Below are positions 46,559-49,242 of a stretch of DNA of 64,000 nucleotides, piece after piece (position 1 is the first letter of the stretch; the number at the start of each line of letters is the position of its first letter). This DNA is from Fretibacter rubidus. Lineage in GTDB: Bacteria > Pseudomonadota > Alphaproteobacteria > Caulobacterales > Maricaulaceae. Below the pieces are notes generated by a model, which searched no databases, was not told the DNA's origin, and saw only the letters and a list, made by a program, of their open reading frames with translations. The DNA lies in contig NZ_CP163423.1 of assembly GCF_041429785.1 (NCBI RefSeq), positions 2,790,001 to 2,854,000 of the forward strand. The letters run 5' to 3'. The translations under genes and the position numbers were made by a program.

Positions 46559-47179
46559 ATGACGAAATCAGATCTTATCGCTGACCTTAATTATGCCAGT
46601 GCCATTGCAAAGGACGGCGCGCATGGCCCGCTTTTGGGCGGCTCTATAGGATTGATGTGGGGCGTATTAATTATCCCAACCCTTATTTTTCATGGTCTGA
46701 CCATGATGGGTAAAACGCCTATTCCGCTGGAAAACATTGGCCTTGTTTGGGCGGCTTACGGATTAATCGGTGGGATACTCAACGGCATATTAGGGCGGCG
46801 CGTTGGTCGCAAAGCGGGCGCAGGCTCCACCCTTAATAAGGTTAGCGGTGCGATGGGCATTTCTATGGGTGTGATTATATTCAGCTACGCCATTGCAACA
46901 GTTTATGTGACCGCAACGCAAGGCTTACCAATCTTTACATATGCAACGATAATGGTGCTTGCCTTTGCGCTGGGGTGCATGAATTTCGCAACGCTCGCTA
47001 AAATAACGGGGCAACGCTATTTAAAAATTGGGGCGCTTATATCGGGTATTTTTATGGTCATCTGTATGATGAATGTCACCACGATTAGCGTCTATTTCAT
47101 CGCAGCTTTCGGCGTGCTTTGCACACAGGTCATTCCCGGCATTATCGAAATGAACAATGAGCGCCGCCATGCCGCATAA
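46559..47179 (+). CDS. Six-helix membrane protein of an autoregulated locus
   Basis: From the ATG at 46559 (GGAG site 7 bases upstream) the protein has 206 residues. A short polar N-terminus (MTKSDLIADLNYASAIAKDG) is followed by about six hydrophobic helices. I recognise no named family beyond membrane proteins that accompany small winged-helix regulators. The next gene begins inside its 3' end (overlap 23 bases), so the two are translationally coupled and likely act together, perhaps with the membrane protein as signal partner. Confidence 0.72.
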   Translation: MTKSDLIADLNYASAIAKDGAHGPLLGGSIGLMWGVLIIPTLIFHGLTMMGKTPIPLENIGLVWAAYGLIGGILNGILGRRVGRKAGAGSTLNKVSGAMGISMGVIIFSYAIATVYVTATQGLPIFTYATIMVLAFALGCMNFATLAKITGQRYLKIGALISGIFMVICMMNVTTISVYFIAAFGVLCTQVIPGIIEMNNERRHAA

Positions 47180-47504
47180 AGAAAACGCAGAGAATACAGG
47201 GGCCGACCACGATATCCCTATTGATGCGATTGATGATGTTATTCACGGACGATTACGGCTTGGCATTATGGCCTATCTATCAGCGGTGAACCCCGCGAGC
47301 TTTCCCGAACTGCTCGACAAGACAGGGACAAGTAACGGCAATCTATCGACCCATCTTACCAAGCTGGAAGCGGCAGGCTATATCCGCCAAGACAAGGGCT
47401 ATAAAGGCAAACGCCCGCAAACATTAGTGCATTTGACCAATGGGGGCCGCGCGGCATGGATAAATTATCTGGATGCGATGCGCGCGCTCTTGGGTGACCC
47501 ATAA
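47157..47504 (+). CDS. Winged-helix transcriptional regulator (MarR/ArsR-like, HTH_27 type)
   Basis: This 115-residue protein has one winged helix: VIHGRLRLGIMAYL, then FPELLDKTGTSNGNLSTHLTKLEAAGYI as the helix-turn-helix, and KGKRPQTLVHLTNGGRAAW as the wing. No metal-binding Cys/His set is seen. The neighbouring twin palindromes at 46448-46492 suggest that it represses its own operon and the divergent DUF2141 gene. The stop codon overlaps the U tract of a minus-strand terminator. Confidence 0.85.
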   Translation: MSAAMPHKENAENTGADHDIPIDAIDDVIHGRLRLGIMAYLSAVNPASFPELLDKTGTSNGNLSTHLTKLEAAGYIRQDKGYKGKRPQTLVHLTNGGRAAWINYLDAMRALLGDP

Positions 47505-47538
47505 TAAAAATGCCCGGGCCATGCTCCTGGCCCGGGCA
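47501..47538 (-). terminator. Intrinsic terminator of the candidate small RNA
   Basis: The perfect 10-bp stem 47511-47520/47529-47538 (loop of 8 bases containing AGGAG on the minus strand) is followed on the minus strand by TTTTTATTAT. On the plus strand it lies 6 bases after the regulator stop and may also end that transcript, although no T run follows there. Confidence 0.85.
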
Positions 47539-47586
47539 GTCTCTGAAGGGGTATCAGAACGCAGCGGCTGGAAGAAACCGTTGCGC
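47501..47586 (-). ncRNA. Candidate three-hairpin small RNA
   Basis: On the minus strand about 85 bases fold into three successive hairpins. Hairpin 1: 47578-47585 with 47560-47567 (CGCA/TGCG and CGG/CCG, one mismatch), loop TTTCTTCCAG. Hairpin 2: TCTGA (47554-47558) with TCAGA (47542-47546), loop TACCCCT. Hairpin 3: a perfect 10-bp GC stem (TGCCCGGGCC/GGCCCGGGCA) and TTTTTATTAT, an ideal intrinsic terminator. A promoter-like pair lies just upstream and no minus-strand gene feeds into it. The two pyrimidine-rich loops could pair with Shine-Dalgarno sequences, as in several rhizobial and Rhodobacter sRNAs. Transcription has not been shown. Confidence 0.55.
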
Positions 47587-47588
47587 AC

Positions 47589-47617
47589 CTTATAACTAAC
47601 TCAGTTTATATTCTGAC
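47589..47617 (-). promoter_or_regulatory. Putative promoter of the small RNA
   Basis: On the minus strand GTCAGA (47612-47617) and TATAAG (47589-47594) are 17 bases apart, an acceptable sigma-70 spacing, and point into the hairpin series. Confidence 0.45.
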
Positions 47618-47620
47618 GCT

Positions 47621-47634
47621 GTGACGTGCGTCAC
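47621..47634. promoter_or_regulatory. Palindrome GTGACG-N2-CGTCAC upstream of the small RNA promoter
   Basis: GTGACGTGCGTCAC has perfect 6-bp arms. It is centred about 45 bases upstream of the presumed small RNA start, the place of an activator binding site next to a -35 element. It also lies about 90 bases upstream of the phnA start. The binding protein is unknown. Confidence 0.45.
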
Positions 47635-47716
47635 GCTTTTCTAGGAATTATCTTGGCCTAATCCTGACAATCCCTTAAGGCACATTTTTGATCATGTGCT
47701 ACCCTAGGAGCTATCG

Positions 47717-48244
47717 ATGTCCGCCCCCTGCCCCCTTTGCGAAACTGCGGTTGCTACGCAAGATTATAGCGTCCCGGAAACACCTGCCCCTATCACCTTA
47801 AAGCTTTGTGAAAACTGCCACGCAGCGTTGGATATGCCCGCCGCTAACGCCGCTCATTGGCAATGCCTGACGGTAACAATGTGGTCAGAGGTCGAGGGCG
47901 CACAAGTCACCGCTTACCGTATTTTCAAAGCCTTGCCATCAGAAGCCTTTGCCCAAGACGCACTCGATATGCTGTATCTTGATCCTGATACACAAAGCTG
48001 GGCCGACAGCTTTGCTTATCCTGTGCCCAATGCCAATCCAACTTTGGATTCAAATGGGACATTTTTAGCGGCGGGTGACAATGTCACGCTGATTAAGGAT
48101 TTACCCGTCAAAGGCGCGGGCTTTACCGCCAAGCGCGGCACAGTTGTGCGTGGTATTTCGTTGACCGATAATCCAGAGCATATCGAAGGCCGGGTCAATG
48201 GTCAGCGCATCGTCATCATCAGCGCCTTTGTGAAAAAGGGCTAA
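47717..48244 (+). CDS. PhnA-type zinc-ribbon protein
   Basis: This 175-residue protein has an N-terminal zinc ribbon (CPLCETAV ... CENCHAAL) and the C-terminal PhnA/YjdM domain (LDSNGTFLAAGDNVTLIKDL; KRGTVVRGISLTDNPEHIEG). The name comes from proximity to the phosphonate operon in E. coli, but no phosphonate pathway is implied here, and an RNA- or nucleotide-binding role is equally possible. An AGGAG site lies before the ATG. Confidence 0.9.
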   Translation: MSAPCPLCETAVATQDYSVPETPAPITLKLCENCHAALDMPAANAAHWQCLTVTMWSEVEGAQVTAYRIFKALPSEAFAQDALDMLYLDPDTQSWADSFAYPVPNANPTLDSNGTFLAAGDNVTLIKDLPVKGAGFTAKRGTVVRGISLTDNPEHIEGRVNGQRIVIISAFVKKG

Positions 48245-48255
48245 GGCCCGACACT

Positions 48256-49242
48256 TTATGTGAGGCGAATATTCAAACGGTAAGCCAGCGCAACAAGTAG
48301 TAATAATAACACGCACCAGACAATAATATTGAGCCGTTGCGCGCGCCCTGCTTTTTGCTGACTTGTCCAGCGGCGCGGACGCAAACCTTTATAGGCAAAA
48401 ACCAGTTGCGCCGATAAAATTGCGCAGACAACATTTAGCCCCAACAGTAACGCCGCCCCCTGCGCGCGGTCATAATCTCCAGCCCCCAAAAACAACGCCG
48501 AAGCGACAGAGGGCGGCAATAAGGCCACGGCCACCATCACCCCAACCAAAGCCGACGAAATCCCCGTGGATAATGACAGCGCCGCCGCAGCCCCTGATGC
48601 GAGCGCAAGCACCACTATTTCAGGGCCGATAACGGCCCGCGATGTCAGCTCTAAGCTTTCCATATTCACAGGGACAATCAACGTTAAAGCGAGCGCGAAC
48701 ACAAAACCGACGACTAATCCTGTGACCGCCGTTTTTGAAGCCTTACGCATGAGTGACATATCCCCCAGCGCTGTCGCCAAAGCGAAGGCCAAGATTGGAC
48801 CTAGCAGCGGGGCAATCACCATCGCCGCAATGACAATGGCGACACTGTCCCCATTAAGGCCAATCGCCGCCACGATGGAGGACAAAACAGTCAGCAGAAT
48901 AAAATCGGAATTCAGCGTGCAGTCGCGGTCGACCTTGGCGTATAATTCCTCACGCAAAGATGTCGTGCTGACTTTTTCGTCTGTGGGTTCTGGCGCTTCG
49001 GGGCGGGGCAATGTGGCCTCGACGGGCAGAACAACGACCCGCCAATCGGGCGAACCAGACAGCAAGCTTTGCAAATCATCGACAAGACCTTGGCCGCGCC
49101 CAGTTTCGACAACAATCTCAATGGCCTTTTCAAACCGGCCGTAACCACTATCCACGGACCAATCCACAGGGTTCGCGCGTTCGACAATGGCTATCACCGC
49201 GTCGGCTTTATCGGCAGGAAAATTGGCTTTTATAAATCGCAT
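48256..49242 (-). CDS. DUF389 (TIGR00341) membrane protein
   Basis: From the ATG at 49242 the protein has 328 residues. The N-terminal cytoplasmic part resembles a ferredoxin-like domain (RFIKANFPADKADAVIAIVE), and the C-terminal DUF389 part has about seven transmembrane helices with FILLTVLSSIVAAIGLNGDSV and MVIAPLLGPILAFALATALGD, the family signature. The function is unknown. An upstream extension is open but has no ribosome site. The gene converges with phnA. Confidence 0.88.
   Translation of the reverse strand: MRFIKANFPADKADAVIAIVERANPVDWSVDSGYGRFEKAIEIVVETGRGQGLVDDLQSLLSGSPDWRVVVLPVEATLPRPEAPEPTDEKVSTTSLREELYAKVDRDCTLNSDFILLTVLSSIVAAIGLNGDSVAIVIAAMVIAPLLGPILAFALATALGDMSLMRKASKTAVTGLVVGFVFALALTLIVPVNMESLELTSRAVIGPEIVVLALASGAAAALSLSTGISSALVGVMVAVALLPPSVASALFLGAGDYDRAQGAALLLGLNVVCAILSAQLVFAYKGLRPRRWTSQQKAGRAQRLNIIVWCVLLLLLVALAYRLNIRLT

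Follow-up and report, generated by a model that had tools for sequence, protein, structure and literature searches.

A predicted small RNA gene with a CRP-type operator, whose operator, C-rich seed and terminator recur at nine loci in one bacterial family

CyaR and Spot 42 are CRP-dependent small RNAs (sRNAs) of enterobacteria. The alpha-r8 family comprises MmgR of Sinorhizobium and SisA-D of Caulobacter and corresponds to suhB in Rfam (RF00519; gathering score, 41 bits). In the sections of the published account that describe their architecture, alpha-r8 RNAs consist of a weak hairpin, a single-stranded anti-Shine-Dalgarno (anti-SD) stretch with the core 10-mer UUUCCUCCCU, and a terminator, and SisA-D are presented there as having no common promoter motif (PMC12559287). 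A survey of the literature, largely at title level, found no description of a CRP-controlled sRNA in the group of Alphaproteobacteria considered here. Analysis of a 64,000-nt stretch of DNA (the window) revealed an element on the minus strand, from position 47635 to position 47504, that is probably a free-standing gene for a trans-acting anti-SD sRNA under a CRP-type activator, as judged from its sequence and its relatives.

The element is positioned between a winged-helix regulator gene (47157-47504) and yjdM/phnA (47717-48244). Because both of these genes are on the plus strand, the terminator, which was found on the minus strand only and whose stem is followed by TTTTTATTAT, is needed by no minus-strand gene. 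No minus-strand open reading frame (ORF) of at least 60 amino acids was found between 47504 and 47717, in agreement with the preliminary description, which had reported a perfect GC stem with a T tract and no minus-strand gene behind it. Nothing pointing to a coding role was found in the three frames of the putative 83-nt RNA, and the corresponding RNAs of a third genus would measure 43 to 48 nt. Between 46508 and 47504, a gene for a membrane protein with no Pfam match overlaps the winged-helix gene, which belongs to HTH_34; most winged-helix loci used for comparison have this gene pair too.

Minus-strand nucleotides 47595 to 47501 were predicted to form three hairpins with a folding energy of -43.4 kcal/mol, compared with a mean of -27.5 kcal/mol (standard deviation, 3.0) for 200 dinucleotide shuffles, none of which folded as well (z = -5.33). 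The two upstream hairpins without the terminator (47587-47541) gave a z of -3.61, again with 0 of 200 shuffles as good. A longer 5' end (47598-47541) weakened the two-hairpin fold (z = -2.37; 8 of 200 shuffles as good), and the opposite strand of the two-hairpin stretch folded too (z = -2.40; 4 of 200). These results bear out the three hairpins described previously, and the two apical loops were found as claimed (Table 1). An RNA gene is probably present at this locus.

The palindrome GTGACG-N2-CGTCAC, which had been proposed as the binding site of an activator, is exact at 47621-47634; an operator of its type stands together with seed and terminator at the nine loci described below. With one base added on each side, its description was corrected to a CRP-type operator. 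This name is based on TGTGA-N6-TCACA, which we take to be the CRP half-sites of Escherichia coli.

Table 1. Coordinates of the features at the locus and of a CRP-like gene elsewhere in the same genome
Feature	Position	Strand	Basis or remark
CRP-type operator CGTGACGCACGTCACA (palindrome plus one base per side)	47620..47635	-	9/10 matches to TGTGA-N6-TCACA
Candidate -10, TATAAA	47605..47610	-	5/6; 18 bp from GTGACG at 47634-47629 (4/6); absent from promoter scan; not at the -10 position of the relatives
Candidate -10 region, TAGTTA (2/6, class II position) and, four bases on, TATAAG at 47594-47589 (5/6)	47589..47598	-	
Possible divergent promoter, CCTAAT	47657..47662	+	4/6; on the yjdM side of the same operator, at class II distance
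Predicted small RNA	47504..47598	-	Fold; 5' end placed at about 47598 to 47583, 3' end inside T tract
Predicted hairpin 1, loop UCUUCC (47575-47570)	47559..47586	-	Fold
Predicted hairpin 2, loop UACCCCU (47553-47547)	47558-47542	-	Fold
Putative C-rich seed UACCCCUUCA, conserved, in the loop of hairpin 2	47544..47553	-	Comparison with relatives
Predicted terminator stem-loop, perfect 11-bp GC stem; T tract 47510-47504	47511..47538	-	Fold, terminator scan
CRP-like gene (G000 C1 about 564053-564712) with the class II CRP-type operator that precedes it	L274 1500-2234 (G000 C1 about 563978-564712)		

General sequence searches were performed with the element. No Rfam family reached its gathering score in the window, which agrees with the earlier statement that no named family matches. 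When 222 bp were compared by BLAST with 61 genomes, only the window's own genome was returned, and a plasmid search gave no match to the element. BLAST of 65 bp against 137 genomes of the family gave short weak matches (E <= 1 in 70; best non-self E, 0.0012); 19 loci among the matches listed had no sRNA layout by eye and were taken for presumable chance or coding matches. The covariance search of relatives that the preliminary description had suggested was done with a model built from the single sequence (R1). It gave matches at E <= 1 in 20 of the 137 family genomes, including its own (125.5 bits), and its best non-self match, at 23.5 bits, scored about the same as the opposite strand of the window itself (23.6 bits). 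In these 137 genomes, R1 missed the relatives later found by other routes. The exact 17-mer of hairpin 2 was present in 22 stretches of genome contigs scattered over phyla (about 30 expected by chance) and in 10 stretches of viral contigs, and the best R1 score around such exact stretches was 18.3 bits.

Comparison of gene neighborhoods and operators revealed a unit of operator, C-rich seed and GC terminator at nine loci in three genera of one bacterial family, namely, the window (G000), G001, G002, G072, G013, G083, G080, G084, and G020. In the window's genus and in the second genus, the neighbor of the unit is either the same winged-helix gene or xerD; in the third genus, the unit lies between other genes. 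G002, which belongs to the window's genus, was found by synteny; the winged-helix gene, terminator, body, and operator have the same orientation there as in the window, and the operator, CGTGACGGCCGTCACG, comes after the stop codon of a small gene, with no gene diverging from it. G001, of the same genus, was found by scanning the genus for CRP-type sites and shows the order dihydrolipoamide-dehydrogenase (lpd)-like gene, small ORF, operator, RNA, and terminator facing xerD; its small gene is 36% identical to that of G002. G083 was found by the strict palindrome, and G072, G080, and G084 were found by a class II pattern (GTGAC-N4-GTCAC, 22 bases, TAT). The unit lies directly 3' of xerD in G013 and in G072, where rmuC follows. 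In the third genus (G083, G080, G084, and G020), it lies before an acyl-CoA thioesterase gene; a ferritin-domain (bfr-like) gene stands on its other side in G083, G080, and G084, and G020 keeps the unit though this gene was not found in the 16 kb around it.

G020 was found with a profile built from six members, with the window left out (R2). The window itself scored 14.5 bits with R2 (E = 0.0055), below the non-member promoter L276 (18.4 bits), owing to additional bases in its spacer and the length of its body. When 398 genomes of the order were searched with R2, with 10 candidates scored per genome, 4 were matched, the window's genome not among them; the matches of this search include G033 (20.0 bits) and G423 (17.8 bits). 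Twelve neighborhoods picked without a known member contained the unit in G013 only, and the other 11 were without it. At L256 1492-1820 (G083 C26), several partial R2 matches were seen on both strands, as if operator-like palindromes were repeated.

Sequence comparison indicates that operator, seed, and terminator are conserved across the nine loci and that the body is not. The seeds read UUCCCCUUUA in G001, AUCCCCUUCA in G072 and G013, UUCCCCUUAA in G020, UUCCCCUCC in G080 and G084, AUCCCCUCC in G083, and UUUCCCUCG in G002. The terminator is present in all nine loci, and in each of them the distance from the start of the seed core to the terminator stem is 10 to 14 nt. The preliminary description had asked whether hairpins 1 and 2 are kept. 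Hairpin 2 was not kept as a hairpin; since it is the seed that is kept across loci, hairpin 2 is best seen as the seed, which flanking bases close into a loop in the window. The outcome named there as refuting, retention of the terminator alone, was not seen in that form, as operator and seed are retained with it. Hairpin 1 has counterparts of different sequence in G001, G072, and G013, that is, in two genera. The fraction of 300 shuffles folding as well at the 5' end was 0.03 for the window, 0 for G001, and 0.02 for both G072 and G013; the 5' hairpin was weak in G002 (0.14) and was not predicted in the third genus (G083, G080, G084, and G020).

In counts that are biased upward because most loci were chosen through their operators, an exact operator was located 51 to 115 nt upstream of 18 of the 174 distinct terminators in the loci compared; the seed CCCCUY (CCCCTY) accompanied 8 of these 18 terminators and none of the 156 without an operator (seed in 8 of 182 in an alternative count with the window counted whole), and a composite scan gave 10 matches with the real operator (nine members and one chance match) versus 0, 0, 0, and 1 for four control motifs. 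The computation shows that operator, seed, and terminator recur jointly at nine loci and are kept where the neighbor gene differs or is missing.

Given this architecture, the RNA might be a diverged member of alpha-r8 (suhB, RF00519) with a changed seed and not represent a separate family, which we regard as doubtful. The layout predicted in the window corresponds to that given for alpha-r8 in the architectural sections of the published account (PMC12559287), though of the nine loci only the window, G001, G072, and G013 have a clearly predicted 5' hairpin. The suhB model gave sub-threshold scores (15.4 to 23.9 bits) in 5 of the 10 RNAs tested, and in the two alignments inspected, the C-rich stretch and ACU(U) were in register. 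However, NsiR4, AsxR, NmsRb, and Spot 42 scored as high as suhB below threshold, and the suhB gathering score was reached by none, the best score being 26.8 bits (L287) and that of the window 12.2 bits (E = 2.1). With that score unreached and the alpha-r8 10-mer missing from all nine member sequences, assignment to alpha-r8 fails.

The preferred reading, a separate sRNA gene behind a CRP-type operator, is considered probable. When one mismatch was allowed, 0.13 occurrences of TGTGACNNNCGTCAC were expected in the window; for the looser TGTGA-N6-TCACA, 1.03 were expected and 2 places were found. The motif YGTGA-N6-TCACR was clearly enriched over its reversed control in the window's genome (26 versus 6) and in G001 (18 versus 3) and weakly enriched in G002 (13 versus 8). 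The strict palindrome was present in 45 of the 137 family genomes and its control in 5 of 137; 19 of the 30 strict-palindrome loci read fall inside ORFs of at least 100 amino acids, and a palindrome of this kind is therefore not always an operator. The class II pattern was found in 29 of the 137 genomes, versus 2 for the control; 5 of the 42 sites among the matches listed are members of the RNA unit, and among the remaining sites that were read are promoters of mRNAs and sites within ORFs. In G108 and G109 (L263 and L264), similar genes are preceded by a CRP-type operator that has TATATT at the class II spacing; the gene downstream in L263 matches the SNase family.

A sigma-70 consensus scan of 47000-48300 gave no site at its threshold. 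The -35/-10 pair proposed earlier, GTGACG and TATAAA, matches the consensus as listed in Table 1 and is one of several possible positions; TATAAA stands twelve bases before TAGTTA. Over six operator-terminator loci, which were not chosen on their -10 sequences (the window, G001, G002, G013, G083, and the non-member L114), the class II offset was the best of 40, with a mean of 3.5 of 6 matches versus 1.76 (standard deviation, 0.57) for all offsets. The window itself, however, has TAGTTA at the class II offset, and on the yjdM side of the operator CCTAAT lies at the class II distance, so that CRP-type control of the RNA is graded as likely and no more. The operator could instead, or as well, serve plus-strand yjdM, with the RNA not under CRP control. 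CCTAAT and the poor minus-strand -10 at class II distance are in keeping with this explanation, but the two close yjdM homologues have no upstream operator (in 450 nt in G009 and in the 100 nt available in G028), and in G001 and G002 the operator is kept without yjdM; this alternative is rated unlikely. That the locus holds no RNA gene and is what remains of the convergent terminator of a gene that once faced the winged-helix gene is very improbable. A terminator at such a place does not in itself imply an RNA gene, since in G006 a terminator hairpin stands between the winged-helix gene and an lpd gene just past it with no operator within 400 nt, but in G000, G001, and G002 the terminator is accompanied by operator and seed, and both are found again in the third genus at a location unrelated to this one.

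For a CRP-controlled sRNA gene, the best candidate regulator by sequence is a 220-amino-acid CRP-like protein of the window's genome, which contains a cNMP-binding domain, an HTH_Crp_2 domain, and the helix KRETVSR. Among NCBIfam models, it scored highest with CRP, at 67.2 bits, under the cut-off of 266. One of the 42 class II sites stands before its gene, an arrangement that suggests autoregulation. For a second protein, L119 (helix TRETVSR), CRP was likewise the highest-scoring model (60.4 bits); on visual inspection, residues presumably expected in a cAMP pocket are missing from it. Three other CRP-type regulators scored best as FixK.

A second operator is located at L114 1501-1746 (G000 C1 about 1930489-1930734), between genes for an M24 peptidase and an M14 carboxypeptidase. 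It is followed by TATGAC at class II distance and by a terminator, has no seed, and was not counted as a member. The operator is followed by a tandem array of 3.6 copies of 45 bp, and every hairpin of this array has at its end GACCCCTTACT, which is close to the seed. A role of L114 as a sponge for the RNA was not supported (duplex p, 0.35 to 0.60 versus shuffles; cofold gain, 0).

In the proposed mechanism, a CRP-type activator would bind the operator and switch on a promoter just downstream, and RNA polymerase would make an RNA of about 80 to 95 nt, stopping where the GC terminator forms. This RNA would be stabilized by Hfq together with the U tract at its 3' end. The seed UACCCCUUCA, perhaps helped by UCUUCC of hairpin 1, would pair with purine-rich ribosome-binding sites of mRNAs and so block translation of the targets. 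Several features of Hfq-dependent sRNAs were found, namely, an Hfq gene (G000 C1 1028581), a terminator with a U tract, and an accessible seed loop, and binding of Hfq is presumed. Repression of this anti-SD type with Hfq is slightly favored. Comparison of the relatives favors the independent sRNA gene with an anti-SD-like seed that the preliminary description had seen as a trans-acting riboregulator. The target prediction that it had suggested gave no outstanding candidate among the 61 ORFs of the window (best duplex, -17.6 kcal/mol, versus a background 0.1% quantile of -18.4 kcal/mol), and for this reason the trans-acting role is presumptive.

The RNA was missed by BLAST, Rfam, and a single-sequence covariance model, and its relatives in three genera are revealed by operator, seed, terminator, and synteny together. 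For and against are evenly balanced for the broader proposal that these loci form an unnamed family of CRP-switched sRNAs, kept only as operator, seed, and terminator, with a body that turns over too fast for homology tools and that in one genus has shrunk to an RNA of about 43 to 48 nt, little beyond a terminator preceded by a UUCCCCUCC-type seed. Such reduced versions would be close to the minimum for a base-pairing sRNA. The arrangement points to post-transcriptional control that, in a group of Alphaproteobacteria, would be tied directly to a CRP-type regulator.

The locus resembles CyaR and Spot 42 by analogy, in the logic of an sRNA gene placed under a CRP-type regulator. It differs from them in that the putative RNAs measure 43 to 83 nt and carry another seed; the Spot 42 model gave 20.9 bits (gathering score, 80), no family match, and CyaR was absent among the matches listed. 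SorX of Rhodobacter (RF02784) scored below its gathering score of 46.6 bits in the window (18.9 bits) and in G072 (19.7 to 21.3 bits), where the alignment rests mainly on the terminator stem. Alpha-r8 RNAs share with the predicted RNA an unpaired C-rich anti-SD stretch and a Rho-independent terminator and, where a 5' hairpin is predicted, the hairpin as well. The seed is (Y)CCCCUY here, in contrast to the alpha-r8 10-mer, and a CRP-type operator precedes the RNA, whereas SisA-D are described without a promoter motif in common. Alpha-r8 is linked to the FGase gene in most species; the neighbors identified here comprise winged-helix, xerD, lpd-like, rmuC, ferritin, thioesterase, and yjdM genes. 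The reading favored by these sequence comparisons places the predicted RNA outside any named family, without the 10-mer of alpha-r8/MmgR but built like these RNAs.
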